Shown one piece after another: positions 10,301 through 64,000 of a stretch of 64,000 bases of DNA. This DNA comes from Cephalotus follicularis (Eukaryota; Streptophyta; Magnoliopsida; Oxalidales; Cephalotaceae), in NCBI GenBank assembly GCA_001972305.1, contig BDDD01000345.1:508466-572465 (forward strand), written 5' to 3'. The first letter of the stretch is position 1; every line of letters begins with the position of its first letter. The position numbers and the translations under genes were made by a program. The notes beneath the pieces are model-generated. The model did no database searches. It was given only the letters and a program-made list of their open reading frames with translations, and was not told the origin of the DNA.

Positions 10301-10469
10301 AAAGGTGACAGACCTCTTAAAGGAAATAGAGCTTTAAACTCTAGTCTGAATAATGAGTAATGTTATGGGTCACCAACTAAGATGAACCCTACGGGGGTCA
10401 CCAACCGAGATGAACCAGAAAGGCTATCACTCGAGATGAAACCAGAAGTCTTACACATCAATATCTTGT

Positions 10470-21562: not shown

Positions 21563-21675
21563 CAGTCGACTGTTATTGATTACAGTCGACTACTAAACCC
21601 AGATAGTCGACTGCCAAGGAAGGCAGCCGACTGATGGGGATATTCAGCCGACTGCCACATGGAGGCAGTCGACTG
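21563..21675. repeat. Phased palindromic word array 4
   Basis: Six words start at 21563, 21583, 21604, 21624, 21645 and 21666, intervals 20, 21, 20, 21 and 21 bp. Variants are CAGTCGACTG, TAGTCGACTG and CAGCCGACTG. Spacers of 10-11 bp are unrelated to each other. This is one of the most regular arrays in the window. Confidence 0.9.
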
Positions 21676-22329
21676 TTCTGGGCTGTTAGAAGAAATTGTC
21701 CGGATTTTATGGGCGATCCGTACTGAAACTTGATCCTACTGTTTAAGCTTGACAGTTATGGATTCGTATGGGAGTATTGGATTCATACTTCTAAGGATCA
21801 ATTCCTCTGGTATAACGAACAATAGTGTGCTATTATTGTTAATGACGAATCAAACTTCAAAGTGTATTGTTTGAATCCTAGAGTAATTCGAATGTACGTT
21901 TTGGACCAAACTCATGTGATTACACTAGCTTCCCTAGAGGATGATTCCAAAATCAGTCCCTGCTAAGTGTAATTAAAACACAAGAGATCGAATGTTTACA
22001 TACCCTGTGTGGTGGAACCCGGATGTCGGGACCGAATATCTATGAAATCGGTTCAAATGTTCATACTGCTACCGCTGCGTTATGCTGTGTATTTGTTAAA
22101 CGTTACTGATTTGATTTCTCCAAAGTGAGACTTCTTACGTTGTTTGGTTTCTTCTTTGGAACTCAATGTTATTGAATTGTTTGCTTCTTTGAGGAGGTGC
22201 ATCCTTGATGAAGTCATTATACGAAGTGCCTATTTTCGATAGATTGTATGTTATTGCTATACATTTTGAGAATGTATAAACCAAGTATTTTACTTCTATA
22301 AACTACTTGGATTGATTGATTAAATTGAT

Positions 22330-22850
22330 TGTTTGTATAATCATAGAGTGTAGTTTAACTTGGTTACTAATCACGGAGTGTTATGTAACCGGATGCTAAA
22401 CATACGAGTGTACGCATTCTTACTTTGTCTTAATCATCAGTTACAAACATAGAGTGTGATGTAACGAGGTTACTAATCATGGAGTGTTACGTAACCGGAT
22501 GCAAAACATATGAGTGTACGCGTCCCTACATCGTCTTAATCATAAGTTACAATCATAGAGTGTGATGTAACGAGGTTACTAATCATGGAGTGTTACGTAA
22601 CCGGATGCAAAACATATGAGTGTGCGCGTCCCTACATCGTCTTAATCATTAGTTACAATCATAGAGTGTGATGTAACGAGGTTACTAATCACGGAGTGTT
22701 ACGTAACCGGATGCAAAACATATGAGTGTACGCATCCCTACATCGTCTTAATCATTAGTTACAATCATAGAGTGTGATGTAACGAGGTTACTAATCACGG
22801 AGTGTTATGTAACCGGATGCTAATCACATGAGTGTATGCATCCCTAAAGA
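22330..22850 (+). repeat. 106-bp tandem repeat inside the 5' LTR of element B
   Basis: About five units; the last four start at 22429, 22535, 22641 and 22747 (CTTAATCAT), exactly 106 bp apart. Each unit contains three sub-phrases with the core GAGTGT (ATAGAGTGTGATGTAACG, GGAGTGTTACGTAACCGG, ATGAGTGTACGC), so it probably grew from a smaller repeat of about 35 bp. Neighbouring units are nearly identical. The truncated 3' LTR lacks the array. Confidence 0.92.
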
Positions 22851-23386
22851 TAGAACTATTGGTCCCTTACGACATGATGGTTTTAATGATTCTGCTAGCC
22901 TGTTGGCATGATTGTTCATACATATATATATTTGCATGCATATGCTTTCACTATTCAGATTTAACCACCTTGCATGGATACATTTATATTTTGTTTTCAT
23001 ACATGTACCCTACTTAGCCGAGTGAGGACAAAGGATAACCCCCCTACAGTTTCAGATTAAGCGAAGACTTGAAGATTGCCGCTGAAGCTTGAAGAGCTTC
23101 TATTTGCCAATTGAAGGTTGTTGTTTTATGATGATGATGTAATGTATTTTTATAATTGAGCGATTCATACCTCGTTAATGTTGAACTTCCGCATGTCAGG
23201 ATGATGTAATTTGAATTATAACTGCACGTAGTATGGGATGCGTGCGGATAACTTGTTTTATATTCCGGCTTATTGAATGCTTCCGCATATCGTTTATGAA
23301 TTGTTAAATGTATGCTGGAATATATTTAATTGCTGATATCACCACATATACTTGTCTAATGTAAATGGAAACGGGGTGTGACAAGA

Positions 23387-23398
23387 TGGTATCAGAGC
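23387..23398 (+). promoter_or_regulatory. Primer-binding site of element B
   Basis: TGGTATCAGAGC, the tRNA-Met complement, begins four bases after the LTR end. It confirms the 5' LTR boundary and orientation. Confidence 0.92.
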
Positions 23399-23488
23399 AT
23401 ATTCCATATATGCTAAGCTGGGATAAGTTTCTCAGAAATTTGAGTGAACTGTTCCTAATGAATTATGTTATTCCATATAGGAAGCCGA

Positions 23489-24607
23489 ATGGATTTACGA
23501 AGAGGTAGAAGGGTAAGGCGTAGAGCCGACGAGGGGATCAATGCTCCGCCAGTACCTGAAAATGTTCCGCCAATGAATGAAGGACGGAATGCCCCTCCAG
23601 TGCACGTTGATGTTCCACCGGTGCACGATGAGAGGAGTAACTTTGACCACCTGGCTGATCTTTTTCGACAGCAGATGCAAGCAAATGCAGTGAATATGGA
23701 ACAGATTCGGCAAATGTACGAAGCCAACTGGGCATATCAGCAAGCACCCAATGCTTGTCATACCGGTGGTTTTGGCAGAGATTTGGAGCGGTTCATGCGA
23801 CAGAATCCTCCGACTTTCAATGGTGAACTGAACGCTACTGTTGCCGAATGGTGGATAAGAGACTTGGAGAAGATATTTGCTGTTCTGGAATGTACCGATG
23901 ATCAGAAACTTAATTTTGGTGTGTACCGCTTGTGGGGCGAGGCTACTTACTGGTGGGAGAGAACCGAAGCAAAATGGGAAGCCCGTGGACTTGGCCGGAC
24001 TTGGGACAGATTTCAGTCCGAGTTTCTTGAGGCATATGTTCCACAGATTGAGCGGGACCGATGGGAGACGGAATTGATGGAGTTACGTCAAGGAGACATG
24101 ACGGTAGCTCAGTACAAGACTAGATTAATGGAGCTAGCAAGGCATACACCTTATCTAATGGAGGGTGAACCCCGAATGATCCGGAGATTCCTGAAAGGCC
24201 TTCGACCTGACATCAGATCTAAACTATTGATGTTAAAGCTAACCTCGTTTGTTGAAGTTGCTGAGAGAGCAATGATTTTGGAGGCTGATGCAAGTGAACG
24301 GAGGATAGAAAGATCTCGTGCTACTCAATCGAGACCTACTTCTTCACACCGGCAGGGAAGTAATAATCGTGCTGGATCATCAAAGACTGCTATTCAGGAG
24401 AATGATGCTCAACCTGAAGCTTGTTCACACTATGGCCGTAAGAGCCATCGACTGGAAGATTGTTGGTTAAAAAATGGGTTGTGCATGAAGTGCGGAGCAT
24501 CCGACCATTTCTTGATGGCATATCCGAATCGGCGAAAGACCATCCTTCCTGGAGCTGCGAGTGATCGCAATGCTGCAGCTGGACCTTCGCGGTCGAAGGA
24601 TAACTGA
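23489..24607 (+). CDS. gag: Intact Gag of element B, zinc knuckles altered
   Basis: Gag forms the virus-like particle and binds the element RNA. The frame opens at 23465, but the likely start is the Met at 23489 (MDLRRGRRVRRR), matching MDRRRTRGR in the Tekay element at 44928; this gives 372 residues. The gag domain is intact (DLERFMRQNPPTFNGEL, DLEKIFAVLECTDDQK, LWGEATYWWE, FLKGLRPDIRSKL). Two zinc knuckles follow, but each has Cys replaced by Tyr: CSHYGRKSHRLEDC (codon 24431-24433) and CMKCGASDHFLMAY (codon 24521-24523). The frame ends just before the protease position and no pol follows. Whether the altered knuckles still bind RNA is unknown; the open frame itself is certain. Confidence 0.93.
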   Translation: MDLRRGRRVRRRADEGINAPPVPENVPPMNEGRNAPPVHVDVPPVHDERSNFDHLADLFRQQMQANAVNMEQIRQMYEANWAYQQAPNACHTGGFGRDLERFMRQNPPTFNGELNATVAEWWIRDLEKIFAVLECTDDQKLNFGVYRLWGEATYWWERTEAKWEARGLGRTWDRFQSEFLEAYVPQIERDRWETELMELRQGDMTVAQYKTRLMELARHTPYLMEGEPRMIRRFLKGLRPDIRSKLLMLKLTSFVEVAERAMILEADASERRIERSRATQSRPTSSHRQGSNNRAGSSKTAIQENDAQPEACSHYGRKSHRLEDCWLKNGLCMKCGASDHFLMAYPNRRKTILPGAASDRNAAAGPSRSKDN

Positions 24608-24639
24608 CCGATGAAGTGCCTGAAACATTTCCTCTGGAT

Positions 24640-24683
24640 AAATATCTAAATTCGAGGACGAATTTTCTTGAAGGAGGGAGGAA
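24640..24683 (+). promoter_or_regulatory. Pol-deletion junction and polypurine tract of element B
   Basis: The sequence AATTCGAGGACGAATTTTCT followed by GAAGGAGGGAGGAA directly precedes the 3' LTR. The same phrase, reversed, lies at 40330-40365 in the autonomous Tekay element, where it follows the chromodomain. Here it follows gag within about 35 bp, so about 3.5 kb of pol is missing. Confidence 0.88.
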
Positions 24684-25031
24684 TGTAACAACCGCAATTT
24701 TTAATCAATGTATATCGTACGGATTGATGAATAAATATATGTTGGTTAAAGAATTGATGTAAAATTTTTCCTTTAATCCAGTTAATTGTTGTTCTGAAGA
24801 TTAAATTACAAGTCTTAATGACTAATTAGAACTGGGAAGAAATTGGAGGAATAAAATTTCAGGATCAGAAAAACGTAGTATGGGATGCGTGCGGATAACT
24901 TGTTTTATATTCCGGCTTATTGAATGCTTCCGCATATCGTTTATGAATTGTTAAATGTATGCTGGAATATATTTAATTGCTGATATCACCACATATACTT
25001 GTCTAATGTAAATGGAAAACGGGGTGAGACA
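24684..25031 (+). mobile_element. 3' LTR of element B, internally deleted to 348 bp
   Basis: Positions 24684-24872 match the first 189 bp of the 5' LTR, and the rest matches its last 158 bp. About 2.77 kb (20453-23225 of the 5' copy) is missing. The cut lies 10 bp before word array 3. The end reads GGGGTGAGACA rather than GGGGTGTGACA. Since both LTRs are copied from one template at insertion, the deletion came afterwards. Confidence 0.92.
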
Positions 25032-27051: not shown

Positions 27052-27538
27052 TGTAACGCCCTAAACATCACCTCTCTCTACCAAAACTCTCTCAAATCTT
27101 CACCAAATGCACTGATTAGCATGGAAAATCAAAGGGGGAGGGTTATAGATTGATCAAAGACTTGATTAACAAAAGATTGGAGCTCCACAAGCTAAGAACT
27201 TGAGTTCTTTCTCCGATTTCTAAACCTAGAGACCAAGATCAAGTTCCAATATTTGATAGAAACCTTATATACCTAAATATGCTATGATTTACACTTATAT
27301 GCACATGTATGAACTTCTTTCATGGACTAGAATTGATTGAAATCAAATGTTATAGAATTGGGTCTAAATGGGGGTTTTGACCTAGAAATTGATAGGATTG
27401 ATTAAAATGATTTTAAACGGTTTTAATGGTATAGAAATGGTTAATAGGACTTGTATTGAAATTGGATTGAAATTATTTGAAGGAAAAGTATTTGTTTGCA
27501 GAGATTTTGGCTAAGGACCCTAGGTTCTGCCGAGCTAA

Positions 27539-27745
27539 GCGTCGACGCACACGCTCTAAGCATCGCCGCTTAGCCTTTATTTCAAAAATGAAATCGTTTT
27601 AATCATTAGCGCTTGGCTAAGAGTCGTCACTTAGTCTTTAAGTGCCGCCACTTAGGCCTTCTTGAAATTTATTTTGACGCTTTGTTTCCAAGCACGAACG
27701 CTTGGAGTTTAACTGACGATGCTTAAGCGCAAAGCGTCACCACTT
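27539..27745. repeat. Phased palindromic word array 5 (GCGTCGACGC type)
   Basis: Words start near 27539 (GCGTCGACGC), 27560 (GCATCGCCGC), 27622, 27642 (GTGCCGCCAC), 27671, 27692 (GCACGAACGC), 27713 and 27734 (GCGTCACCAC). Most intervals are 20-21 bp, with one gap of 62 bp and one of 29 bp. Words are often flanked by TAAG or CTTA. They are more diverged than the CAGTCGACTG words, so single assignments are uncertain, but the 21-bp step is plain at 27671-27734. Confidence 0.7.
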
Positions 27746-27920
27746 AGGCAAGCAATCTTTCTGTAAATGTTTTCAAAGCACTTTTTCTAAATGGTTTTCT
27801 TTTGGGTCTTTTCCTAGGCACATGTAAAGTGATTGTTGGGTTTCCTCCCAAGTTTTAAAGATAGTATGGCAAGAAAAAAGGGTAATGTCTATAGTAACTG
27901 TCTAGTCGAGCTTCGTGACT

Positions 27921-28420
27921 AACCTAGAGATGTGTACCACCTTCGGGAGGTTAGATGTCCTCGTCCTAGAGCTTTGTGCCACCTTTGGGGGATTTAAGAC
28001 CCATTTTAGCTACTATCAATGGAACAATAGACGATTGTTATCTAATCCTAGAGTTGTGTGCCACCTTTGGGGGGATTTAGACTTGTATAATTCTAGAGCT
28101 GTGTACCACCTTCGGGAGGGTTATACTCATGTATAGTTAAGCTACGTAACTAACCTTAGAGTTGTGTGCCACCTTCAGGAGGTTAGCGTTCTCGCCCTAG
28201 AGTTGTGTGTCACCTTAGGGGGACTTGAGACTTACATGAGCTATAGAAGTGATTAACTGATTGATTGATATGATTGATTGAGTGAGTGAGTGAATTTGTA
28301 ACTAGTCGAGTACCTATTGGTTACATATAGGCAATTAGTTCTACTTTCACTTACCTTCTATTATATGCAATTGGATGTCTCAACCTTGAGTTGTGTGCCC
28401 CATTTTAGGGGGTTTAGACT
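27921..28420 (+). repeat. Irregular 28-bp repeat, core GTGTGCCACCTTTGGGGG
   Basis: Seven related copies start near 27921, 27965, 28047, 28092, 28154, 28195 and 28384, each reading like CTAGAGTTGTGTGCCACC followed by a G-run. Spacing is irregular (41-189 bp). The repeat sits in the 3' half of the solo LTR, the same relative place as the 106-bp repeat of element B. Confidence 0.75.
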
Positions 28421-29125
28421 TACAGATATTGATTGTTTGGTTAACTACTTATATATGCTAATATGAGATAATGTAATTATATAGTTAACCGCCCAATTGT
28501 CTAATATATTGATGGATAGAAGTGTATGATTAGGTTTACAATCTATATGTATCCTGGTATGAGACGGCTATATATATATATATTGATTCGTTAATCACAA
28601 TTGTTCACGTATATTGCCATGACATGCATTGATAAATGTGATATCTGCTCATATCATCAGCATAGGGTTGAGTTTCTACGAGGCCTTTAGGTTGACCCAT
28701 CATTCGAGATGGGGCATCTTTATATGTGTTTAGGCATAGATGGATCGAGGGCTAGTGGCAGGGGTAATGTATAGGAAGATGATTGACAATAGAGATGCAT
28801 GGAGCCTGGATGCATAAATGTCGCGGATTATGGTTTTATTGTATAAGCATTGTATAAGTATCGAACTGTTTAGATTTTATTGAATTGTAAAGAATTGTAA
28901 AAGATGATCTGAAATGGTAATGTATGGTTTAGTATGGATTTATAGTATGTATTGCATTAAGGTTTAAGAGTGTATTGAATGGACGTATGCACATATTGTT
29001 AAAGTTTTAAGTTGTACGCATTTTCGTTATTTAGAATAGGCTTTAACTATACATAACTCATGGATTAAGTGACCGATCGAACGTTATTGATGTCTTGAGA
29101 CCTCCAACGAGTTCGGGGTGTCACA

Positions 29126-36890: not shown

Positions 36891-36940
36891 CAGCCGACTG
36901 GACAAACTGTCCAGTCGACTGCCTGCCATCCAGTCGACTG
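36891..36940. repeat. Phased palindromic word array 6, copia internal region
   Basis: Words start at 36891 (CAGCCGACTG), 36912 (CAGTCGACTG) and 36931 (CAGTCGACTG), intervals 21 and 19 bp. This small array lies between the pol end and the extra ORF, outside any LTR. Confidence 0.8.
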
Positions 36941-37062: not shown

Positions 37063-38204
37063 ATGGGACCAAAGAGACAAAAGCATTTGGCTTCTAGGCA
37101 ACCAAGGGCCTCACAAGTGGAGCTAGACTACGACAATACACTCTTTCTCTCCAAAGAGAAAGAGATGAGGTATAACTCAATTTTTAGCTCCGTTAAGTTA
37201 CATTTTGAGAAATGGTTATCTAGGGATGTTCTTATTAGCAATCAAGCCATTGTCATGACTTGGTTAGAAACTATGGGTTGGTTTGATTACCTTTGCTCAT
37301 CTCATGTCATATACCCTAGATTAGTGAAGTTGTTTTATGCTAATTTAGAGTCTTCCACAATTCCTTTGTTTTAGGCACTCCTATATCAATTACTCCTGAT
37401 TTGATAGCCGAAACCTTAGGAATTCCTAATGTCGGCATTACTCATTTTAATGACATTGGAAAAACGGAGGCCCTAGGAATTTGTTTAGAACAACCAAATG
37501 TTAATCCTCTTATGAATGTGACTAGCAGTCATTTGCCTATTGCCTCTAGGATCATTCTACTACTTGTAACAAACACATTCCTCCCAAGAGAAGGCTCGCA
37601 CACTCTTCCTTCCGAGCGAGACCTTAAATTCGTTGCATGTGTCAAGAATGGAACTCAAATAAACCTTTCTTACCTTATTGTCAACCACTTATTGTCTAGA
37701 CCAAATCACACTCCTTATCCTATGCTTCTCAGTAGGATCATTATGGTAGTTCTTGCATCACTTAACATTGATATTCCTGATGATGAGCAATGTGTCAAAC
37801 CTTCCCATAAGCAGTTGGTGAATAAGGCTGGTCTTAGACTTTGTAACATTAGATTTGAGGATGGTGAGTGGGTCAAGTTACAAGGCGGGGGTAGAGAGAA
37901 AATGAGAGAGCAAGCCAATGTAAGAGCAGGAGATTATGAGGATGATGATGAGGACGATACTCAGCAGTTTGAGGTGCGTCCGAGTGTTGGCCCGAGCAGC
38001 AGCAGCAGCAGGCCTACCCTGGAGTCACTTCAGGCTAGGATGGATCTTGCTCAGGCCGACATCGAATATCTCAAAGGGCAAATGAACCAGTTTAGTGAAG
38101 GTCCAGCCAATATCCTTCAGGGTCAAGCCGATCTCCTTCAGGGACAAGCAAATATCATTCAGATGTTCCAAAATGCTTTTCCTCAGCACCCTCCTCCCTC
38201 TTGA
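37063..38204 (+). pseudogene. Extra (env-like) ORF of a SIRE-type copia element, one frameshift
   Basis: SIRE/Maximus-type copia elements often carry an extra ORF between pol and the 3' LTR; its role is unknown. Part one (37063-37374) starts MGPKRQKHLASRQPRA and contains KLHFEKWLSRDVL and LVKLFYANLESS. Part two (readable from about 37370, first Met 37401) continues with LGIPNVGITHF and ends in a Gln-rich tail of repeated units (ILQGQADLLQGQANIIQ) after an acidic segment. The parts are in different frames, so there is a frameshift near 37350-37370. No signal peptide or membrane segment is evident, so the env label is not supported by what I see. Confidence 0.8.
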
Positions 38205-39011: not shown

Positions 39012-39182
39012 CAGCCGACTGGCAAGCAATCCAGTCGACTGCCCAAGGTTGAGTAGTCGACTGCCATAGGTTGTGTAGCCGACTGGTTCTTCAACCAAGC
39101 AGTCGACTTTTCTGGGTAACATTGCATGCGCAGTCGACTGTTATTACATGCCAGTCGACTGCTTTAATTGAGCAGTCGGCTG
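39012..39182. repeat. Phased palindromic word array 7, copia/gypsy LTR junction
   Basis: Words start at 39012, 39032, 39054, 39076, 39100, 39131, 39152 and 39173; intervals are 20, 22, 22, 24, 31, 21 and 21 bp. Variants include CAGCCGACTG, TAGTCGACTG and CAGTCGGCTG. The array lies 165 bp from the copia LTR start and at the far end of the Tekay 3' LTR. Confidence 0.85.
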
Positions 39183-40329
39183 CTCTGGGCTGGACAGTGA
39201 CAATAACTCACTGTTAATCCATCCTACACTCAATTGGAACTTATCCACACGCATTTCAAATATCAGAATAACACCAATAATCATACATTGGTCTAAAACA
39301 CAACTCAATTCATGCATTATTCACTGTTTTTATCATGATTCAAATGACATCCAAATATGGCCTTGCATGAAAACCATTCCAATTCTCCATTCAAAATTCA
39401 TTAAGCATGCTAGGTCATCTATCAACAATAACCACAACAACAATACTGTAATCCACAGCCAAAACAACTATACCATTCATTTATAATCATTGTCCTTAAA
39501 CTCAAAGTGCATGCATGAATTCTCTACCACTACCCCTACCTTTGATTTCAAGTTAGAAATCAAAAGTCCACCTCTTTGTGTCTCCTTTCCAGTATCTTTG
39601 AGCCACCCAGTAGCTCCAAGAACCGTCCAGCAGCTTCAATCCAAGCTCCAAGCTTTAACAATGGAGGATCCTATCACTTCCTCACTATTTCTCACTCAAA
39701 TTCTCACTATCTTGGCTCTCAAACTCTCTGGTTCTTTCTTATCAGATTGTAGGGTGAGAGAGACGAAGGGCAGGAAGCATATATGCAGTCTCCTCTCCTT
39801 CAACCCCTTTGCATGGCATAAAAGCCCATTTCTCTCACAATCATTTGCATGCTCACCCACATGTCCCATTTTCTCTTCCTCTTTGTCTTTGCAGGTCCTG
39901 GCGTGGTGGTGCATGCTCAACACGTCTTGTTTATCATCAGATGGCACCTGCAAGTTGTCTTATCAATGGCTGCATGTGATCTCTATCACATGTAACAGAA
40001 CAGGGCACGATCACGTCGGCTGCCTTTCCCTGGCAGTCGGCTGCCTCACCCGGCAGTCCATTTCCAAGTGTCACAACAGTTGGCCAGTCGACTGGTTCCT
40101 CACGCCAGTCGACTGCCTCCCCCTTTAGTCCAACAGTCGGCTGGTATATCTCACCAGTCGGCTGTCCAGGCCAAAAATCTCCACAATTATACTTAGAATC
40201 ACACTTCTAAATGCTCTAAGTTAACTTGAATTCAAGGTATCAACCAGGAAATTCCCCTTTTATTAATTCAAGGTAAAGATTACATCGAGGATTACAATAA
40301 TACATGAAATTGAATTTTCGGGCGTTACA
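39183..40329 (-). mobile_element. 3' LTR of the autonomous Tekay element (minus), truncated
   Basis: On the minus strand the LTR begins TGTAACGCCCGAAAATTC at 40329, directly after the polypurine tract. The first 290 bp match the right part of the 5' LTR (46037-46326) with about seven differences by eye. It contains word array 8 near its start and a pyrimidine-rich stretch around 39550-39900. The terminal GGTGTGACA end is missing; the LTR fuses with a copia LTR at array 7. A 212-codon plus-strand frame (39490-40128) lies antisense within it and is rejected as a gene. Confidence 0.85.
40034..40164. repeat. Phased palindromic word array 8 (3' LTR of Tekay element)
   Basis: Clear words start at 40034, 40085, 40106, 40134 and 40155; weaker ones near 40013 and 40054. 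The pairs 40085/40106 and 40134/40155 are 21 bp apart. The 5' LTR copy has the same array at 46082, 46103, 46131 and 46152. Confidence 0.85.
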
Positions 40330-40365
40330 ATCCTCCCTCCTTCAAAGAAATTCGTCCTCGAATTT
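40330..40365 (-). promoter_or_regulatory. Polypurine tract of the Tekay element
   Basis: On the minus strand: AATTCGAGGACGAATTTCTT, then TGAAGGAGGGAGGAT, right before the LTR. The same phrase precedes the 3' LTR of element B, showing close kinship. Confidence 0.88.
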
Positions 40366-40372
40366 ACATATA

Positions 40373-40894
40373 CTAAAACAAATGCGGGTAACGCTCTCGG
40401 ATATCATCCTCGCATTCCCAAGTTGCTTCATCTGGCCGATGAAACTGCCACTGAACCTTTACCATCGGAATGGTTCTGTTCCTCAAAACTTGTGTCTTCC
40501 GATCCAAAATTCTCACGGGTGACTCCTCGCAGGAAAGATCATCCCTCACCGTAACCGTGTCATAATCCAAGACATGTGATGGATATCGGATATAACCTCG
40601 TAGCATCGATACATGGAGGACATCATGTACACTCGACAATGTAGGAGGCAAGGCTAGCTGATAAGCTACCTCCCCAACCCTCTCCAGAATCTCAAAAGGA
40701 CCAATATAGCGTGGCGCTAACTTGCCCTTCTTCCCGAATCTTTGCACCCCTTTCCATGGAGATATCTTCAAAAACACGTGATCTCCGACATTGAAGGTTA
40801 AAGGCCTTCTCTTCACACTATCGACATAGCTCTTCTGTCGACTCTGTGCCGCTAGCAATTTTTCCTTGATGAATTTGACTTTGTCCGAAATCTC
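40373..40894 (-). pseudogene. pol: Integrase C-terminal (GPY/F) and chromodomain, Tekay element
   Basis: This is the last part of the polyprotein. It contains LTFNVGDHVFLKISPWKG and KLAPRYIGPFEILERVGEVA, the GPY/F module of integrase, followed by VHDVLHVSMLRGY and a chromodomain-like end (PVRILDRKTQVLRNRTIPMV, then WECEDDIRERYPHLF). The chromodomain is the mark of chromoviruses and is thought to steer integration to particular chromatin. An in-frame TAG at 40895-40897, where CAG is likely, cuts it off from the rest of integrase. The frame is otherwise open. Confidence 0.9.
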
Positions 40895-40897
40895 CTA

Positions 40898-42495
40898 CAC
40901 CAAATCCGACCCAAGCAATGGTCGTTCCCCAACCTCGTCCCAACAGACAGGTGACCTACACTTTCTCCCATACAGTGCCTCGTATGGAGCCATACCAATA
41001 CTCGAGTGATAGCTGTTATTGTACGAAAACTCTATCAGAGGGATATGGTCTTCCCAGGTTCCACCAAAATCGATCACACAAGCCCGAAGCATGTCCTCCA
41101 AGGTTTGTATGGTACGCTCTGATTGTCCGTCTGTCTGAGGGTGGAAAGCAGTACTGAGATTCAATCTGGTTTCGAAGGCTGTCTGGAATCTCTTCCAGAA
41201 GTTGGAAGTGAAGATCGAATCCCTGTCGTAAACAATGCTCACCGGAACACCGTGCCGCCTTACAATCTCCTTCACATACAATCGAGCCAACTTGCTCGCA
41301 GAATCAGTGACATGTGTGGGCAGGAAGTGTGCTGATTTGGTGAGTCTATCAATAATAACCCACACGGCATTATGACGATGCCTAGTCAGTGGAAATCCAT
41401 AAACAAAGTCCATCGTGATGCGTTCCCATTTCCACTCTGCCACTGGTAATGACTGTAACAGTCCCGCAGGTCTTTGGTGCTCGGCCTTGACCCTCTGGCA
41501 AGTCAAACACTTCGCGACATATTCAGCAATCTCGCGCTTCATACCAGGCCACCAATAAGTTTTCTTCATGTCTTGGTACATCTTGGTGCTACCAGGATGG
41601 ATACTGTACAGAGATTTATGAGCCCCGCGGAGTAACTCATCCTTCAGTCTCAGTTCACTTGGAAGACATACACGTCCCCGATATCTCAAAATACCATCAG
41701 CATACACGCTAAATTCGGATCCCGAGCCCAGGTTCTCCCGAATCCGCTGTAACTCTGGATCATGTGGTTGTGCATCTCTGATGTGATCAAGTAACACTGG
41801 CTGTACTCGCATGTCGGCTAGAAAGATCCCCGATGACTGATTGAACGGAGACCACTCTTGGAAGTCTTCTAACATCTTCCATTGCGACACCATTGTACTA
41901 GCAACCATAGCCTTGTGGCTTAAGGCATCAGCGACTACATTCGCTTTCCCCGGGTGGTACTGGATACTGCAGTCATAATCATTAAAGAACTCTACCCACC
42001 TGCGTTGTCTCATGTTCAGGGTGTCCTGACAGAACAGGTACCTTAAACTTTTGTGATCGGTAAAGATCTCAAACTGCGCCCCATAAAGATAGTGTCTCCA
42101 CTTCTGAAGGGCGAAGATAATAGCTGCAAGTTCAAGGTTGTGAGTCAGGTAATTTTCTTCATACGGCTTCAGCTTCCTAGAAGCATAAGCAATCACCTTT
42201 CCTCGCTGCATCAGCACACAACCCAAGCCCTTACCCGATGCATCGCTATAAACTGCAAAGCCCTCATTACCCTCGGGTAATGCCAAGATAGGAGCGGAAA
42301 CCAACCAATCCTTCAGTTCACGGAAACTAGCTTCGCAATCATCATCCCAGACAAACATGGTCTTCTTCTGTGTCAATCTAGTCAAGGGCTCAGCTACCCT
42401 TGAAAAGTTCTGTATAAACCTCAGGTAATAGCCTGTCAAGCCCAGAAAACTGCGTACCTCCGTCACATTCCTCGGCTGTGGCCAATTCGTACCAC
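40898..42495 (-). pseudogene. pol: RNase H and integrase core, Tekay element
   Basis: The 523-codon open frame (40895-42466) carries the RT connection and RNase H with D75 (VYSDASGKGLG), E112, D137 (FTDHKS) and D180 (NVVADALS). The integrase zinc finger has H283, H290, C320 and C323 (KCLTCQ). The catalytic core has D353 (TMDFVYGF), D414 (SIVYDRDSIF) and E450 (HPQTDGQSERT), the D-D-35-E spacing. All catalytic residues are present. The frame is separated from RT by a one-base-type frameshift near 42490 and from the C-terminal part by a TAG stop. It would have removed RNA from hybrids and joined DNA to the chromosome. Confidence 0.92.
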
Positions 42496-42900
42496 CTCTG
42501 TCTTTGACGGATCCACCGCCAAACCTTCCCCAGATACAATGTGACCAAGAAAGATCACATGGTCAATCCAAAATTCACACTTACTGAATTTGGCATACAG
42601 CTGGTGCTCTCGGAGTATCTGCAAAGCCAACCTCATATGGCAAGCATGCTCCTCCTCACTCCTCGAGTATACAAGTACGTCGTCAATAAACACAACGACA
42701 AACTGGTCCAGATATGGTCGAAACACATCGTTCATCAATGACATGAACGTAGCCGGTGCATTGGTGACACCAAAAGGCATCACAAGGAACTCATAGTGAC
42801 CGTATCTTGTCCAGAAAGCAGTCTTCTCAATATCTCCTTCCCTTACCCTCAACTGGTGATAACCTGACCTCAAATCAAGCTTCGAGAACACTCGCGTTCC
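42463..42900 (-). pseudogene. pol: Reverse transcriptase palm, Tekay element
   Basis: The frame reads [15 protein letters not shown] and [18 protein letters not shown], followed by [11 protein letters not shown], the active-site motif with the two Asp at residues 70-71. [20 protein letters not shown] follows. The frame ends out of register near 42490, where reading one base further restores [16 protein letters not shown]. It is split from the N-terminal RT by a TAA stop at 42901-42903 where CAA is expected (DLFDQL then VFSKL). Confidence 0.92.
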
Positions 42901-43581
42901 TTACAACTGGTCGAACAAATCCTCGATGTGAGGTAAAGGATACTTGTTGTTAATCATTGCCTTGTTCAACATTCTGTAGTCGATGTAGAGCCTCATCGAC
43001 CCATCCTTCTTCTTGACAAACAGTGCACCCCACGGTGAAACATTGGGTCGAATGAAACCCTTATCGATCAGGTCCTGTAACTGCAATTTCAGCTCTCTCA
43101 ATTCTGCAGGAGCCATTCTATACGGTGGTTTAGAAATAGGAGCTGTACCTGGTATAAGATCAATGACAAACTCCATATTTCTCCTCGGTGGCAAAGATCC
43201 CAAGTCATCCGGAAATACATCTGGGAAGTCACATACCACTGGGATCTCCTCCAGGCTCAAGCCCTTCTCCTTCCTCCGGTCAATTACATAAGCAAGATAC
43301 CCTTCACATCCTTTCTCGAGATACTTCGACGCACGGATGAAGGATACAATCGATGTAGAAAACCCCTTGTCTCCCTTAAACTGGAAGGTAGTACCATCGG
43401 GCAAACAAAAATCAACCGTCTTGCTGTAGCAGTCCATGTAAGCATGATGTGCTGACAGCCAATCCATCCCCAAAATAATATCAAAGTCGCGGATAGGCAA
43501 TACTATCAAATCCGCATACAAGGAAATGCCCGCCATAGACATCTCACAACCCCTATATACAGTATCTGTATACATGGAAGC
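42901..43581 (-). pseudogene. pol: Protease end and reverse transcriptase fingers, Tekay element
   Basis: The open frame begins with the protease C-terminal half ([20 protein letters not shown], the typical ILGMDWL motif) and passes through the linker ([16 protein letters not shown]) into RT ([40 protein letters not shown]). It is in the same frame as gag and as the next RT piece and is bounded by stops at 43582-43584 (TGA) and 42901-42903 (TAA). One continuous gag-pol frame is therefore interrupted only by single codon changes here. Confidence 0.92.
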
Positions 43582-44928
43582 TCAGGCAGGTGTGCTTACA
43601 TCCAAGGTATATGGCATGTTGTCTGGTGTTACATCTAAACATGATGCAAAATATGATGATATGAAAGAGTGTGATGCTCCAGGGTCCATCAATACTCTAG
43701 CAGCAAAACCATAAATATACAGTGTACCTCCAACAACCGAGGTAGACTCCGGAACCTCTGTCTGTGAAAGGGTAAAAACTCTACATTTCGCAATGCCCTT
43801 GCCGGTGTCCCTTCGCTGTGAAGGCCCCACTGCGGGACCACTGTTGCTAGCTGGTCCGATAGGTGCTGTAGCCTGACTCTTCAGGCAATCTCTCACGGAA
43901 TGGCCAGCTTCCCCGCACCTCAAACACAGTCCATTCATCCTCCAGCAATCCTTTTGTAAGTGGCCCTTACGACCACAGTGATAACAAGCTCCAGTTCCCG
44001 CATTACTCCCCTGACTAGGAGTACCCTGTGTGGCAGTCTGTCCGGATTTGTTCTTCGATGATTTAGTCGGAGAACCACTGCCCTGCCATTTTGAAGACGC
44101 TGGTCTCATCGGACTCTGTTTATTCTGTTGTGCCCGGGCCGTCTCTGCTCGGTCCTCACTGGATATGCTCTCCAGCAGCCTCTCCTTTTGAGCGACCTCT
44201 GAAAAAGTACCCAGATCCATAGCCCTAATCCTCGACCGAAGATCCGGTCGCAAACCCTTCAGAAATCTCAGTATATTTTTTGCGTCATCAGCTACCAGAT
44301 AGGGTGAATGTCTGGCTAGCTCCATAAACCTGGCCTGGTACTCGGCCACGGTCATCTCCCCTTGCTGCAACTCAAGAAGCTCTGTCTCCCTTCGCTCTTG
44401 CTCAATCCGGGGTACATAGGAATCGAGGAACTCTGTTTGGAATCTCTCCCATGTAGCATCGAGTCCAACTGACTCCCACTTCGCTTTGACCATCTCCCAC
44501 CAGTGAGTGGCCTCTCCCCATAAACGGTACACAGCAAACTTCAGCTTCTGAGTATCGGTACAGTCCATCACGTCAAAAATCTTTTCCAAGTCTTGAATCC
44601 ATCTTTCAGCAATCGTAGCATCAAGTTCTCCCCGGAAGCTAGGTGGATTCTGTCTCATAAACCTTTCGAGGTCCCTTCCAAACTGACTACCATCCTCCCC
44701 TGGGCAGTGATCGGGAGCTCTATGTTGCGGTCGAGCTTGCGCGTAGTACTGGCGCATCTCCTCCGCATTGGCCATATTAAAGGCCATCTGTTGCTGGAAG
44801 TAGTCCGTAATCCGGGCCATCGGGTCCCTATCATCTTCGGGGACATTCACTCCTTGCGGCACATTCATTCCCTTAGGGGCATTGGCTCCAGTAGCTCTAG
44901 CCCTACCTCGTGTTCTCCTTCGATCCAT
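43582..44928 (-). pseudogene. gag: Gag and protease start, Tekay element (448 codons)
   Basis: The frame starts MDRRRTRGRARATG at 44928 and holds the gag domain (DLERFMRQNPPSFRGELDAT, DLEKIFDVMDCTDTQKLKFA, FLKGLRPDLRSRI) and two complete zinc knuckles, CYHCGRKGHLQKDC (about residues 315-328) and CLRCGEAGHSVRDC (335-348). The retropepsin site MDPGASHSFIS lies near residue 415; DPGA replaces the more common DS/TGA but occurs in related plant elements. It ends at a TGA (43582-43584), after which the same frame continues. It is the intact counterpart of element B's Gag, with which it shares long identical stretches. Confidence 0.92.
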
Positions 44929-45027
44929 TTGTTCCTATATGGAAAAGATGTCATTAGTAGTCATCTCAAGGAAACAATCCGTTAATTGCCAAGGAACTTA
45001 TCCAAGCTAAGCATATAATGGATATAT

Positions 45028-45039
45028 GCTCTGATACCA
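45028..45039 (-). promoter_or_regulatory. Primer-binding site of the Tekay element
   Basis: TGGTATCAGAGC on the minus strand, three bases after the 5' LTR end at 45043. Confidence 0.92.
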
Positions 45040-45042
45040 CGT

Positions 45043-46326
45043 TGTCACACCCCCGTTTTCCAAATTAAGACAACATATAAAGTGGTAAGGTAATCAACAT
45101 AATATAATTCAGCTCATGCAAAATTACCAATAAATAAAAACCTTAGATAGCGGAAGCAATAACATAAATGAGCCGAATTTAAACATGCATCACGCATCCC
45201 ATACTACGTGATGCCCAACAAGTTATAATAAAATCCAACCTCATTGTCGATCGCCCAAAACGGAGCGTGAAATAATACAGTACGAGATAACAAAATATCC
45301 TTTGTTACAATAATCCAAATTACATAATCATTGTTCAGTTACTCAAAACATAACAACAAGAGAAACTACATAGTCTTCTCTTTAAGTCTCCAAGCATGCT
45401 CCATCTCACAAACCACTCCATCAATCTGTTACAGTAGGCCTTTGTCCTCACTCGGCTAAGTAGAAAAGTTTATGAATACAGTTTAAGGTCAAGGTAATGC
45501 GTATCATGAATGAATGCATAGTGATGCAGCATGATATGAAATTTTCACAAAAATTATAACTCCGTATATACATATAAAAATATATGCATGTTCACGGTAC
45601 AAGAATAACTCTGTAAGTTGTATCAACACAAGCAATAAGTATGTCCCAAAAGGAACCAGACAACCAAGTCGTCATAACCGTCGCCACCTCCTGGCCCCAA
45701 CGTCATGCACTCTTACCCCATCCCGTTTGTGAACGGTTTGGAGCAAGTCCTCCGTATGTTGTTTAGCACGACGGCTAACCCAACAGTCACAAGTATTGCA
45801 CAGTACAATTCAAGCAATAAAGTATAATCACTTGATCAAATATATTTGTTTAAAATATATTACTCCATTCACAAGTTGAAATAAGTTATAAAACTTAAAA
45901 CAATACATTTGGATTGCATAGTCAATCCTTTAAAACGTTTCTCCGTATTTGGGGATACTTCCCCAGCCATTTCGAAAATATATAAAATCATATATTTGAC
46001 AAATATATATTTTCGTACAATAATGATTATAATAATCATGCCTCGCCTGGCAGTCCGTTGCCAAGTGTCAAAACAGTTGGCCAGTCGACTGGTTCCTCAC
46101 GCCAGTCGACTGCCTCCCCCTTTAGTCCAACAGTCGGCTGGTATATCTCACCAGTCGGCTGTCCAGGGCAAAAATCTCCATAATTATACTTAGAATCACA
46201 CTTCTAAATGCTCTAAGTTAACTTGAATTCAAGATATCAACCAGGAAATTCGCCTTTTATTAATTCAAGGTAAAGATTACATCGAGGATTACAATAATAC
46301 ATGAAATTGAATTTTCGGGCGTTACA
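45043..46326 (-). mobile_element. 5' LTR of the Tekay element, internally deleted
   Basis: On the minus strand it starts TGTAACGCCCGAAAATTC at 46326 and ends GGGGGTGTGACA at 45043. It is only 1.28 kb. The left part (45043-46030) resembles 47012-48060 of the solo LTR (shared GCCTTTGTCCTCACTCGGCT). The right part matches the start of the 3' LTR. The two meet at about 46035, inside word array 8's counterpart, so the central part is missing. Confidence 0.85.
46082..46161. repeat. Phased palindromic words in the 5' LTR of the Tekay element
   Basis: Words start at 46082, 46103, 46131 and 46152, the same spacing as in the 3' LTR (40085, 40106, 40134, 40155). The words upstream of these are lost in the deletion. 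Confidence 0.85.
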
Positions 46327-47011: not shown

Positions 47012-48159
47012 TGTCACACCCCGTTTCCCATTAAGACAACATTAAAGCAGTAAAGGCAATCAACATAACATTATCCAGCTTATACAAAATACAATAAAAT
47101 TAAAACTTTGATTCCATTAACATTTTGCGGAAGCACTTGATAAGAAGCTGAATAAACTGAATCATGCGTCCCATACCACATGATCCCAACATATAACATC
47201 ATTAAGCCATTGCCAATTTCCCACAAACGGAGCGTGATCAAATACTCGATCAACATCATTAGTACATTAATACAGTTGCCCAAAATAAAGCATGTATCAA
47301 TACATGTTTCGACATTTATTTAAACAAATAAAACTCCATCTCCCCTCTGATTCTGCCGCGCACGGTCGACATCCACGTCATTGCATCAATATACAATAGT
47401 AGGGGGTTAGCCTTTGTCCTCACTCGGCTAAATCATAAGTGTCATTTAAGGTCAGTGATAATGAATGTCATGAAATGAATGCACTCATGATGCAATATAT
47501 AACATATCGCCACACGTACATATATATGACAATAGGTGCAACCATGCAAAGTGGCTACAACCAACAAATCATCAATCATGTCTCAAAGGACAAATCAAAT
47601 CCAATCGAATCGGTACGAAGAGTGCTGCCATCTCCTGGCCCCGACGTCGTACTCTTACTCCGACCCCCGACTCCCGGGTCACGAAGCAAGGTAAATCAAT
47701 CAACTCATGATGCTCGCACTCTGTGTTCAGCAATCATGGTAACCCGTGTTACTTGCACTCAGTGTTTAGTAACATTGTATTTCGGCGTCCCTAGCCATCT
47801 CCTGGCTCCTAGGAGAACATCCCGCCACCAGCCATCGGCGACACTTAGTCACCCCAGCCAGTACGTCATCAATCACAATCAACAAATCAATTCAAATCAT
47901 TTCCAAGTAATTTATAAAGTACTGAAAATAATACATTTATACCAAAATGTATTGCATCTTTGAAACCGTGTTTCAATCTGCTGAAAACATACATTTATCA
48001 AAATATATATTTTCATATCAAATAATGATTTGTATAAAATCATGTACACATTTATAAAATGAATAAAACACTTTAGAATCATCCATATTCCAATCATCAA
48101 TTCATTTCATATCAAAATGCGATGCAAACATATGCTCAAAATGTAAGTCAGTCTCTCAA

Positions 48160-48605
48160 CAGTCGGCTGCCGCTTCATGACAGTCGGCTGTTTTCTTTAA
48201 ACAGTCGGTTGTCCCTGATTTGGCAGTCGGCTGCCTCTCTTAGCAGTCGGTTGTCTCATGCTTGACAGTCGGCTACTCGCATAACAGTCGGTTGTCTCCT
48301 CAAGACAGTCGGCTGTTTCATGAACAGTACGTATCTTCTACATCCACACTCACCCAAGCATTACCATCTCAGTGAATACGGGTGAAGTGACACGTGGACA
48401 ATCGACTGTCATCCCAAACAGTCGACTGTGCCATCAACCAGTCGGCTTAATCAAACAGCAGGAGGTGTCTTCCATTTAAAACGCATGAACAGTCGACTGG
48501 CTCCATTGCACAATCTGCTGTTTCCCCTCGAGTAGTCGGTTGTTCTCACTGAATAGTCGACTGATAGCCTCGAATAGTCGGCTGTCCTCTTTGGACAGTC
48601 GGCTG
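48160..48605. repeat. Phased palindromic word array 9, largest
   Basis: Seventeen words in three runs. Run one starts 48160, 48181, 48202, 48224, 48244, 48266, 48285, 48306. Run two starts 48399, 48419, 48439. Run three starts 48490, 48511, 48533, 48554, 48575, 48596. Within runs all intervals are 19-22 bp, mostly 21. Run one is mainly CAGTCGGCTG/CAGTCGGTTG, the others include CAGTCGACTG and TAGTCGACTG. The 11-bp spacers share no sequence. Confidence 0.92.
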
Positions 48606-49507
48606 GTCCTGCAGGTAGTGCACAAACACATCAGAAAACATATGCGATTCTCATCCAAATCCATTCAAAACAGAGCATTCATAAACAACAACACATGTTC
48701 ATGCTCATATCACAGTCTATTGCATGCATTTCATTTATGAATATCCATTATAACTGAACATAAACCACAATTATAAAATCCCCTACCTGTTAAAGCAGTA
48801 GCAACAGTACAGTCGAGCTGCACGTTCAATTACCAAACATTCCCAAATTGCTGCCTACCAAATTATCAGCTCGCTCACTACACATACAACACATTTCAAT
48901 TACAATCAACGCACATAATTCAACGTCGTCGTCACTGAAGTTCGGGCCAGATTCCGGCCAACTCACCCAGCTTGTGAAACACCCATAAACAGGTTCCACA
49001 TTGAACGGTCTACACAGAACCCCTCAAAACTCAACGTGAATCGGCGCCGAACGCCGCGCCATCGCCGGCAGCGAGTTGTGACTCACTGAGTCAACTCGCC
49101 GGACCTCAACAGGTCTGATCGCCACCCAAAAACGCCACACATTCACCAGTTATACGTGTCACTGCCTGTGACTCGACGAGACTCGGCGCCAAATGCGCGG
49201 TCTCAGGCGGCAGTGAGTCGACTCGCTGAGTCGACTCAATCAACTGATTCCGACCATTTCCAGCCGAATAACGCCTCACCAGTGGTCAAAATGGATAGAG
49301 CGGGCCTTCTAGATGAAAACCCCCTCCATCCGCAACGCTAACAGCGCCTAGAAAAGCCGGCAGATGGCGCGCACAGTGACGGCAGAGGAGAAGAAAAAGA
49401 AGAAAAAAGGGGAAAGAGAAGGAGGAGTTACCATCCTTTGGCATGCCTGGGTTGACCGTCGTGCTCTCCCGGTCCTGTGGCTAGCTCCGGCGCTCACTCC
49501 CGATCTC

Positions 49508-49524
49508 TCTCTCACTTTCTCTCC

Positions 49525-49556
<32 letters not shown>
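49508..49556. repeat. (CT)n simple repeat in the solo LTR
   Basis: A run of CT dinucleotides interrupted by short T-rich stretches. Similar CT/GA tracts lie at matching places in the other long LTRs. Confidence 0.85.
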
Positions 49557-49558
<2 letters not shown>

Positions 49559-49904
49559 CGCGGGCGCTATGGGCGCGTGATGCGCCCGTGTCTCCCTCTC
49601 CCTCCCTTATAACATTGCTTCCTCCTTAGTATTTTCTGGTAAAATACTAAGGTATGGGTCCCGATTTTTCCGCGAATCGCGACATAAATTATCCGAACAG
49701 TCACCAAAATAATCGAAATAAAATTGCGAACATTGGGCTTTATTGTCGCGTATTAAAAATAGGCTTTATTAGCCATTTTGGCCAACATAATTACAGCTTC
49801 AATGCATAATGCCTTTTTTATTTCTTTGGGCCTTCATCGGTTTTATTACGATCGTACACGCACCAATTTCATAATAATTATTTATGAAATTCTGGGGCGT
49901 TACA

Positions 49905-52633: not shown

Positions 52634-54190
52634 AAGCCAAGAGGTGACTGCAGACATATGTTATTAACATATGATACACTCTTTGTCAATACATTATTAG
52701 TTTCATTCATGTTCTATAGTGCATATTCTGGAAAGATAGGCATTTTTGCTATATGTATAATCCTAAACCGTTGAATCGGATTAGTTAACCACCATGTTAA
52801 CTGAATACACATATAGCGCCCTATCGTTCGAGAGGTTGGATCTCATACCTGAGAGGTTATGAGAATGAGATCCTTACTCCCATCTGACAAAACGTTCTAA
52901 GTCATAGGTTCACTTTCTTAGGGCAATTGATGAACCGCAAAGACTTGTCGTATTATGCTTGCCCTCTTGTGTGTGGGGGATGGATCATCTCATTACCATT
53001 TGGGTTTATCCTAAAGATGATGCGAGTGCATGCTGGAAGCATGACACGGAACCGACTCACCATAGGAACCCTATTTGGAAAGTTAACGCCTTTGTCAATA
53101 GAAGTCCTATTTTTTCAGTTTTGTATAGTCTATGGTGACTAGTAGGTCTTAGCCTACGTTGTATCCTTAGACCTGAGCGGCTGGCATGCGTTGTGTAGTA
53201 ACCGCTTGACTTTGATTTCGGCCTTCCCCAGCACTAGTCACGTGCTGGCAAAAGGGGAAGCTGCATTGAGATGTATGGGCAAGTGCGGAAGACGGGATCA
53301 TCACACCAATGTTAATGGGTTATAGGCTCTATAACATTTGTGATCGTTGAAGACTTGAAGTCTCGGCAGAGCACTTAGGAGATTAGGAACAAGAGGTTTC
53401 CTGGGATGTCTCCCGATAGTCTCAATGCGTTCATAGAATTATAGTTATCTCGATTTACCTGGGGTGACATTAATCCAAACGCTAATCCATGGTCAGAGCC
53501 GAGATGATGAGAGATATATGACACATATGCCGATGACGAGAATAAAGTACTGGTTAATCTAGCTAACAAATTATAGACGTAGTGTACACGGATCCGAGGG
53601 TGATTTGGAGATCACACTGGGGCTATATGGATAGTCAAGGACTATCTGGGTGGTCATACTAGAATCATGGGATTTCTGGGAAATATATCATTGTACCAGA
53701 AACCAACCAGGCTTTCGGGTCCAGCCTGATTTTGGAACAGGTTGATATGTCGGGTGACATATCATTTAGTGAAAGGATAACATCTAAGGAAGATGTTACT
53801 TTGCTAGTGAGCATTTTATTTGCTGAACATATCATTTCATAGAAATGAGTTCAAGCATCACCATAATGAAATGTTATGTGCAAAGGGTTGTTTGTTTCCA
53901 TTAGCAAGTGCACTTGGGCATTTGTTTGGGGAGAGAGCTTATAGGCTTAGGGATTATTGGGCTAGGGATTCATCGTCCCATTTGGGCCGAATTTATGCCT
54001 TAATTTGGCTAGGTTCATGATTGGCCCAATGTGTTTACATAATGGCCCAATTGTAAATAGGTGTAACTTACTTAAGTTGACTAATTCAACTTTGTGTTTA
54101 ATACACATTTTGGCTGAAATTTTGAGGCATCATTTGCCTTGTCTTTGGCCGGTCCTTGGGTGGCAAAAAGGGAGAGAAAAACGTTTTATA
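52634..54190 (+). mobile_element. Copia LTR, plus strand (arm 1 of inverted pair)
   Basis: The sequence from AAGCCAAGAGGTGACTGCAG onward matches the 3' LTR at 62560-64000 in the same orientation, and, inverted, 54262-55600. It has lost its first bases (TGTTAGATAGGGG...). With 55631-55910 it may form the 5' LTR of the copia element, split by arm 2. The right end is uncertain. Frames such as 52927-53142 are conserved only because the LTR is repeated. Confidence 0.7.
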
Positions 54191-63391: not shown

Positions 63392-63609
63392 TGAATATAC
63401 TACAAGGGGGGGGGGCGGTAGGCGCTTTGTTCTTGTGTCGACCGCCAGCTAAAGCGCAGACGCTTTAATTTCAAGCGTCGGCGGTCTGGGCAGTTTCTGC
63501 ATAATTTCTGCTGATATGTTTAGCTTTTGTCTTTCTTGCACAAAAAGAAACTTTGTTAAATACAAATATGTTATCATCAAAACATAGGATTGAGACATAA
63601 ATGTCAACA
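63392..63609 (-). mobile_element. Mini solo LTR of SIRE type, 218 bp, in the copia 3' LTR
   Basis: The insert is flanked by exact ATAGT duplications (63387-63391 and 63610-63614) and is absent from arm 1. On the minus strand it starts TGTTGACATTTATGTC and contains TGTTTTGATGATAACATA, a SIRE LTR start. It ends TTGTAGTATATTCA after a 10-bp C run. Normal SIRE LTRs are several times longer, so the middle is missing. Word array 10 lies just beside the missing part. Confidence 0.8.
63415..63485. repeat. Phased palindromic word array 10 (GCGTCGACGC type)
   Basis: Words start near 63415 (GCGGTAGGCGC), 63435 (GTGTCGACCG), 63454 (GCGCAGACGC) and 63475 (GCGTCGGCGG), intervals 20, 19 and 21 bp. The words are diverged, so the spacing is the stronger evidence. 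Confidence 0.65.
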
Positions 63610-63614
63610 ATAGT
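63610..63614. repeat. Right target duplication of mini LTR (ATAGT)
   Basis: Exact repeat of 63387-63391. Confidence 0.85.
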
Positions 63615-64000
63615 TATCACGATTTACCTGGGGTGACATTAATCCAAACCCTAGTCATTGGTCGGAGCCGAGATGATGAGAGATACATGACACATATGCC
63701 GATGACAAGAATAAAGTACTGGTTAATCCGGCTAACAAATGATAGATGTGGTGTACACAGATCCGGGGGTGATTTGGAGATCACACCGGGGTTATATGGA
63801 TAGTCAAGGACTATCAGGGTGGTAGTACCAGAATCATGGGATTTCTGGGAAATATATCATTGTACTGGAAACTAAGCGGGATTTCGGGTCCCACTTGATT
63901 TTGGAACAGGTTGATATGTCATGTGACATATCATTTAGTGAAAGGATAACATCTAAGGAAGATGTTACTTTGCTAGTGAGCATTTTATTTGATGAACATG

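Follow-up and report, generated by a model that had tools for sequence, protein, structure and literature searches.

The closest described counterparts of the sequence arrays that we report here are the palindromic repeated motifs (RMs) of 13 Sireviruses, which occur in the long terminal repeat (LTR) and again upstream of the envelope (ENV) gene (Bousios et al. 2010, PMC2829016). As far as the excerpts of that article go, RMs have divergent flanks, lie upstream of the TATA box, have no common binder identified, and are specific to Sireviruses among the Ty1/copia elements compared. Our subject is a 64-kb window (64,000 nucleotides of contig BDDD01000345.1 of Cephalotus follicularis, the whole stretch that was analysed), a nest of plant LTR retrotransposons in which the 10-bp palindrome CAGTCGACTG and its close variants stand in rows at steps of about 21 bp. 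These arrays resemble the RMs of the excerpts in having a dyad-symmetric word in many copies between divergent flanks, clustered in the LTR's first half and directly ahead of an envelope or envelope-like gene. The Vitis RM, CGGTCGACCG, is one symmetric transition away from CAGTCGACTG, and the RM of Tnd-1 reads ACAATCGATTGT (PMC2829016, same excerpts).

The hosts of RMs in these excerpts are Ty1/copia Sireviruses, and only one element of the window, a copia element that we number v, fits them; the arrays of elements i to iv lie in Ty3/gypsy. The placement in the copia element is the Sirevirus RM placement known since 2010, with an internal array just upstream of the envelope-like gene, where the excerpts also put RM copies. 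The excerpts give RMs at least eight copies per element, compared with 3 internal words and 5-8 LTR words in our copia element, and have the LTR copies begin 200-400 bp after the LTR start; the copia words here begin at about 164 bp, in an LTR whose right end is uncertain. A CGG-CCG core is found in 12 of the 13 RMs of the excerpts (Tnd-1 is the exception), but it is absent from CAGYCGACTG and from a second palindrome, AAGCGTCGACGCTT, described below. RMs are absent from the other Ty1/copia elements compared in the excerpts, whereas here the word also fills Ty3/gypsy LTRs. The step of about 21 bp that is present here is not mentioned for RMs in the excerpted text of PMC2829016 outside its supplementary maps. 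What goes beyond these excerpts is therefore the same word in gypsy LTRs, the step of about 21 bp and the second GTCGAC-cored palindrome. CpG islands are a further criterion of RMs; the best 200-bp windows of five arrays here have a GC content of 0.42-0.56 and an observed/expected CpG ratio of 0.68-0.94, with two of the five above a GC content of 0.5.

Activator boxes of the Tnt1 type, in the U3 part of the LTR, are repeated and partly symmetric like the words described here, but they come in few copies, in one family and with another word. Box I of Tnt1 is cited as symmetric in the excerpts of PMC2829016. The VANC targets of Arabidopsis VANDAL elements (PMC5735166) are alike in being arrays of short motifs in non-coding transposon DNA that are factor-specific and also occur in an unrelated element; however, VANDALs are DNA transposons with a known encoded factor, and "palindrom-", "periodic" and "spacer" occur nowhere in that article. 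The 5' CpG islands of Del (Tekay-type) LTRs (PMC4029996, as excerpted) are alike in that the 5' part of these long chromovirus LTRs is variable and changes fast, with a suggested escape from silencing, but "palindrom-" and "tandem" occur nowhere in that article and the eudicot elements treated there have no CpG island. In the open-licence literature, palindromic LTR motifs lead to PMC2829016 and to articles that cite it; among the matches listed, no title mentions the word, nor gypsy LTRs with palindrome arrays at 21 bp. As a string the word occurs in 29 articles, of which the 20 listed are, by title, on unrelated subjects.

The focal array (48160-48605, minus strand) holds 17 words with the sense form CAGYCGACTG. 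They form three runs with steps of 21, 21, 22, 20, 22, 19 and 21 bp, of 20 and 20 bp, and of 21, 22, 21, 21 and 21 bp, which bears out the first-pass annotation of this DNA both in the number of words and runs, with steps of 19-22 bp, and in the individual steps that it gave for the first and last run. Fifteen of the words are within two mismatches of CAGTCGACTG, and those at 48511 and 48533 are added when positions 4 and 7 may be Y and R, respectively. The array belongs to a solo LTR of 2893 bp, LTR iii (47012-49904, minus strand), whose ends read TGTAACGCCCC...ACGGGGTGTGACA and whose five-base flanks, TGTTA and TGTTG, agree in four of five positions. Elsewhere in this LTR, at 49215-49237, two GAGTCGACTC words lie 13 bp apart.

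Any generality rests on this one window, in which we distinguish about six LTR families, several of the gypsy ones being relatives of each other. With at most one mismatch, CAGTCGACTG has 43 matches in the 64 kb, a copy at 46 kb included, compared with a mean of 0.84 and a maximum of 3 in 100 shuffles. The form CAGYCGRCTG (Y and R at positions 4 and 7, at most one further mismatch) collects 51 words; 40 gaps between them are of 60 bp or less, 32 of these being 19-22 bp long, and 20 dinucleotide shuffles give no gap of 19-23 bp for this form at up to one mismatch. When all 1024 10-bp palindromes are scored for such gaps at one mismatch, CAGTCGACTG has 21, its relative CAGCCGGCTG has 4, and the rest have none or one. 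A wider scan of 8-, 10- and 12-bp palindromes, read for the best 22 words of each setting, puts CAGTCGACTG and its relatives at the top every time. Among those best 22, strict settings give more than two pairs at 21-bp steps only for relatives of CAGTCGACTG, and looser settings give a few pairs for some unrelated words, the highest being TGTATATATACA with 9. The spacing peaks at 20-22 bp, and 38 of the 42 successive steps within runs, which were picked by hand, fall at 19-22 bp. Asymmetric variants keep mostly one polarity per array. Read in the sense direction, LTRs i, ii and iii and the internal copia array have C at position 4, and LTR iv has G at position 7; the array at 39 kb is mixed.

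The further arrays annotated at 5312, 20463, 21563, 36891, 39012 and 40034 are all present, together with a partial copy of the 40 kb array at 46082. Most of them lie inside LTRs, as had been claimed for all; the one at 36891 is internal to the copia element. In gypsy LTRs the arrays take two positions, A at about 165-320 bp and B at about 1100-1745 bp from the LTR start, the focal array being a case of B. LTR i has both: array A (20463-20541, plus strand) has 4 words at steps of 21, 28 and 20 bp, about 200 bp from the LTR start, and array B (21563-21675, plus strand) has 6 words at steps of 20-21 bp, at offset 1299. In the 3' LTR of element ii, array A (40013-40164, minus strand) has four words at steps of 21, 28 and 21 bp plus two further words, and the same array recurs in the 5' LTR (46082-46161, minus strand), the two LTR segments being 97% identical over 288 bp. 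Three words at 39131-39182 (minus strand) probably represent array B of this element, in its truncated 3' LTR. The array of LTR iv (5312-5518, plus strand) has 10 words at up to three mismatches, 5 of them at up to one. The number of words per gypsy LTR is thus 17 in iii, 10 in i, about 6-9 in the 3' LTR of ii depending on the boundary, and 5-10 in iv depending on the mismatches allowed. LTRs i, ii, iii and a further one, k11, are related to one another by alignment (i and iii are 64% identical over 254 columns around array B). Elements i and ii, which both keep parts of two LTRs, lack array B in one LTR each.

The 3' part of the copia element occupies 36.5-39.2 kb. Its RNase H end (about 36675) contains the string ADIFTKPL, read by eye, which we take to be a copia RNase H motif. 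The internal array (36891-36940, plus strand) has 3 words between that point and the start of the envelope-like open reading frame (ORF) at about 37063, and it ends about 120 bp before this start. The ORF (37344-38204, plus strand) matches PF20167 with 44.1 bits, where the cut-off is 45, and is 94% identical to Cephalotus proteins; it is called envelope-like by its position. After it come a polypurine tract, GGGGGAGATTG, and a 3' LTR that begins with TGTTGG at about 38848 and contains an array of 5 words (39012-39109, plus strand). The right boundary of this LTR, presumably near 39.1 kb, sets its word count within 5-8, in addition to the 3 internal words. Across 39012-39182, the polarity is that of copia at the left (plus-strand C at position 4) and that of gypsy at the right, with irregular steps of 24 and 31 bp between them, which suggests two arrays fused at 39110-39130. 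The stretch 39100-39140 is a possible recombination junction from the copia LTR array to the gypsy LTR array at a shared word.

Within arrays, the words are 71-93% alike and the nine bases that follow them 22-49%. In the two long focal runs the figures are 79-92% and 43-49%, and the following nine bases in the other runs are 22-37% alike. The claim that the spacers are unrelated holds in five of the nine runs tested, where they are no more alike than shuffled ones. It fails in the two long focal runs, whose spacers match at 4.67 and 4.18 of 10 positions versus 2.51 and 2.65 after shuffling (reached in 0 of 1000 shuffles each), and still do so when the inner six bases only are compared (P<0.001 and 0.0105). 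The 39 kb and 40 kb arrays have weakly similar spacers (P 0.019 each), a likeness that is lost without the two bases adjacent to the words (P 0.13 and 0.12). Tandem Repeats Finder (TRF) reports a period of 42 with 74% matches for the focal array. This array grew partly by tandem duplication, contrary to the first-pass statement that it is not a tandem repeat. Spacers that align as one diverged tandem unit had been named as an outcome that would speak against the proposal; the focal array gives this outcome in part, having expanded in tandem, but its words resist decay.

When the words are masked and each of 28 array pairs is set against 100 shuffles of its own, no pair exceeds its shuffles in either orientation, although two tie with the highest shuffle; the closest pair among related LTRs, i and iii, reaches 39 where the highest shuffle is 41. 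The masked arrays being dissimilar, the words are kept where their context is not. A homology between the arrays at 21.56 kb and 39.1 kb, seen by eye, failed this masked shuffle test and was rejected. In a collection of prokaryote genomes, we find 8 loci with three exact words at steps of 19-22 bp, and every one of them has like spacers (at least 9 of 12 positions); in contrast to these tandem repeats, the three triples of exact words in our window have unlike spacers. Two such bacterial cases of true tandem CAGTCGACTG repeats are L010 2950-3035 and L014 4535-4610 (Pengzhenrongella and a Myxococcales metagenome-assembled genome). Viral contigs give 9 two-word matches, in contigs with a GC content of 0.54-0.67 and with one adjacent exact pair each, without a sign of plant elements; a pol search found no relative.

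The second palindrome, AAGCGTCGACGCTT, has the same GTCGAC centre and 21-bp steps, and is found mainly in a solo LTR, LTR vi (27052-29125, plus strand), which reads TGTAACGCCC...GGGGTGTCACA and has a perfect target-site duplication (TSD), ATCTA. The array (27537-27745, plus strand) has 7 words with 2-4 mismatches in 14 positions, at steps of 21, 61, 21, 50, 21 and 21 bp. At up to 4 mismatches in 14, this word, which was picked for testing after it had been noticed, has 23 matches in the window versus a mean of 9.4 in 30 Markov sequences (maximum 14), and 6 pairs at 20-22 bp versus none; four of the pairs are in LTR vi, one is in LTR k11 (10599-10620) and one is at 63.4 kb. LTR k11 (about 9345-12032) lacks a matching TSD and aligns with LTR iii over 1045 columns at 70% identity. 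It has no CAGTCGACTG array at a comparable distance from its start, and has instead a weaker AAGCGTCGACGCTT array (10474-10633, minus strand, one 21-bp step) near the array-B place of its relatives. This may reflect a switch of word between k11 and LTR iii, a tentative reading because the k11 array is degraded and its homologous flank in LTR iii anchors it from just one side. In the part of k11 related to LTR iii, at 11221-11380, AAGTCGACTC and a single CAGTCGACTG make another use of the same core. At 63434-63486 (plus strand), a further repeat copy has two AAGCGTCGACGCTT words 21 bp apart and one looser word. About 220 bp of this copy (63393-63615), which include the second words, are missing from the copies near 53.4 kb (53440-53450) and 54.8 kb, and ATAGTT stands at both edges.

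We propose, with a probability of roughly 55% and on the strength of sequence comparison, that the arrays are cis-regulatory rows of putative sites for a homodimeric, sequence-specific DNA-binding protein. The half-site would be CAGYC, or AAGYGTC in other families, with the GTCGAC centre in common. At a spacing of two helical turns, dimers would sit side by side on one face of the DNA and stack, and the stacked dimers would recruit transcription or open the chromatin over U3; in the copia element they would act in the same way also upstream of the envelope-like gene. The factor would most likely be supplied by the host, or else act in trans from some other element, and its most likely effect is to switch the retrotransposons on or to shield them from silencing. 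Arrays would grow by tandem duplication of 21- or 42-bp units, with selection then keeping mainly the words, and the word may be replaced by a related palindrome in other families. The same word occurs in copia and gypsy elements in array contexts without homology, which suggests a trans factor common to both. The base preference outside the word is roughly dyad-symmetric: in 48 words (leaving out four decayed words of array iv, the two outer words at 40.0 kb and the 46 kb copy), T stands at -1 in 3, A at +1 in 1, Y at +2 in 43 and R at -2 in 34. A dimeric protein that binds cooperatively, as first suggested from the letters, fits the dyad word, this outside preference, the peak at 20-22 bp and the contrast between words and spacers; the helical phasing is no more than suggestive. 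Of the functions first suggested, integration has no observation here that bears on it. Retention of CpG was considered as a sign of hypomethylation and is uninformative because CpG is little depleted outside the words (observed/expected 0.69-1.00 in three LTRs).

Several observations weigh against this proposal. Steps of 24, 28 and 31 bp are also present, and those of 28 bp, at 5417-5445, 20484-20512 and 40106-40134, equal 2.67 turns and are out of helical phase, so that the words do not all lie on one face of the helix as had been claimed. The period analysis of word positions is best at 21.6 (R 0.69); the periods 10.5 and 7.0 give R 0.61 and 0.64. Flank symmetry within single words is not above shuffles, and we can name no plant factor with such a site. 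The gypsy LTRs i, ii, iii and k11 being related, independent gains of the word may number as few as two, one in gypsy and one in copia. Finally, the arrays show strong RNA folding and complementary adjacent flanks, which a pure DNA-site model does not predict.

These last two features belong to the main rival, which we consider possible though clearly the less probable, in which neighbouring palindromes pair in RNA as stems of about 10-15 bp that feed Dicer, attract small interfering RNAs and RNA-directed DNA methylation, or serve as RNA elements of the transposon. It takes the small-RNA alternative in the form of hairpins rather than of a 21-nt register. When seven arrays are folded on both strands, the better strand has a z-score of -4.8 to -10.9 in six of them and of -2.5 in array iv, but tandem palindromes fold well by construction, and the fold of the sense strand of the focal array is hardly more stable than those of shuffles (z -1.5 and -1.9). 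Between adjacent words, flanking bases show more complementarity than in within-array shuffles, at depth 3 with 1.30 versus 1.03 (P 0.005, one of several tests), at depth 2 with P 0.018 and at depth 1 with P 0.07, where the control of words i and i+2 gives 0.71 at depth 3. Word-word covariation is absent, the words matching their neighbours no more closely than they match shuffled partners (P 0.98 for sense and 0.68 for antisense), and hairpins have no need of a narrow 21-bp step. Maize Sirevirus palindromes are reported as small-RNA hotspots in the excerpted parts of PMC5311732 and PMC10760457. Both the protein-site and the RNA explanation could be true, and for maize Copia elements both roles are proposed in the excerpts of PMC10760457.

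Exchange of arrays between nested copies, by recombination or template switching, would make the sharing between copia and gypsy a matter of descent and not of a common factor. The place at 39012-39182 where the copia LTR array seems to abut a gypsy array of opposite polarity, across the irregular steps of 24 and 31 bp, is what such an event might leave; yet masked flanks and spacers of different elements are not above shuffles, and exchange accounts for the origin of the words and not for their persistence. We find this explanation improbable. We judge it very improbable that, as with VANC, the motif of one element family is freed from silencing by a DNA-binding protein of that family while others hitch-hike. 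The two GTCGAC-cored words do look like a VANC-type switch of motif, but VANDALs are DNA transposons, and among 99 of the 124 window ORFs of at least 75 codons there is no Pfam match to a further DNA-binding protein, a weak point given that the elements are incomplete. Least probable of all is a neutral minisatellite, a functionless 21- or 42-bp unit that was duplicated and decayed, which the related spacers and period of the focal array recommend as its mode of growth and which the word/spacer contrast largely rules out as the whole story, since decay should strike words and spacers alike, the word recurs in elements of unrelated context, and bacterial tandem repeats of it keep their spacers.

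That gypsy elements of this genome share the word and the spacing argues against a private role in one lineage and for a common trans factor. Going further, we suggest tentatively, and think it rather doubtful as a whole, that one family of trans factors reads a GTCGAC-centred code on which both superfamilies converged, each LTR family with a variant word at the two-turn step. If so, the words would turn over in concert as elements compete for the factor or evade it, and the code would be a shared, switchable address for LTR activity. A 10-bp word at 21-bp steps is a simple bait for finding the factor, and the second word is a control of specificity. The arrays offer a handle on the self-regulation of plant retrotransposons, and on telling activation from escape from silencing and from recognition by the host.

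The remaining parts of the gypsy elements are as follows. Element i (20264-25031, plus strand) has a 5' LTR at 20264-23383, a gag-only interior with an ORF at 23462-24607 (PF03732), a 3' LTR at 24684-25031 and a perfect TSD, GTTTG; an internal deletion of 2.77 kb in the 3' LTR removes both arrays. Its 5' LTR also has, at 22336-22846, 4.8 tandem copies of a 106-bp unit whose consensus includes the palindrome GTTACGTAAC, a second kind of repeated palindrome there. For element ii (40330-46326, minus strand), these coordinates cover the internal region and the 5' LTR (45043-46326), which is 1284 bp only and without array B. Gag, protease, reverse transcriptase, RNase H and the integrase zinc domain are above the Pfam cut-offs; the integrase core domain rve (27.3 bits, cut-off 32.6) and a C-terminal chromodomain (Chromo, 23.9 bits, cut-off 25.1) are below. 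From the form of its LTR, element ii presumably belongs to the Tekay/Del lineage. The stretch 39366-39576 resembles LTR k11 at 62%. Element iv has its 3' LTR at 4213-7096 (plus strand) and a partial 5' LTR at 2484-2696, with a gag remnant between them. The gag and envelope-like proteins of the window match Cephalotus follicularis proteins with up to 94% identity. In LTRs i, iii, iv and vi the arrays are followed by TATA-like strings, for which we have no chance control, and LTR iv also has one upstream; these strings speak for the cis-regulatory proposal, and the RMs of Sireviruses upstream of TATA and ENV are a parallel. Near the 3' part of three gypsy LTRs (23014-23034, 45439-45459 and 47411-47431), downstream of A/T-rich TATA-like stretches, the sequence TTAGCCGAGTGAGGACAAAGG is conserved, perhaps as a site near the start of R.
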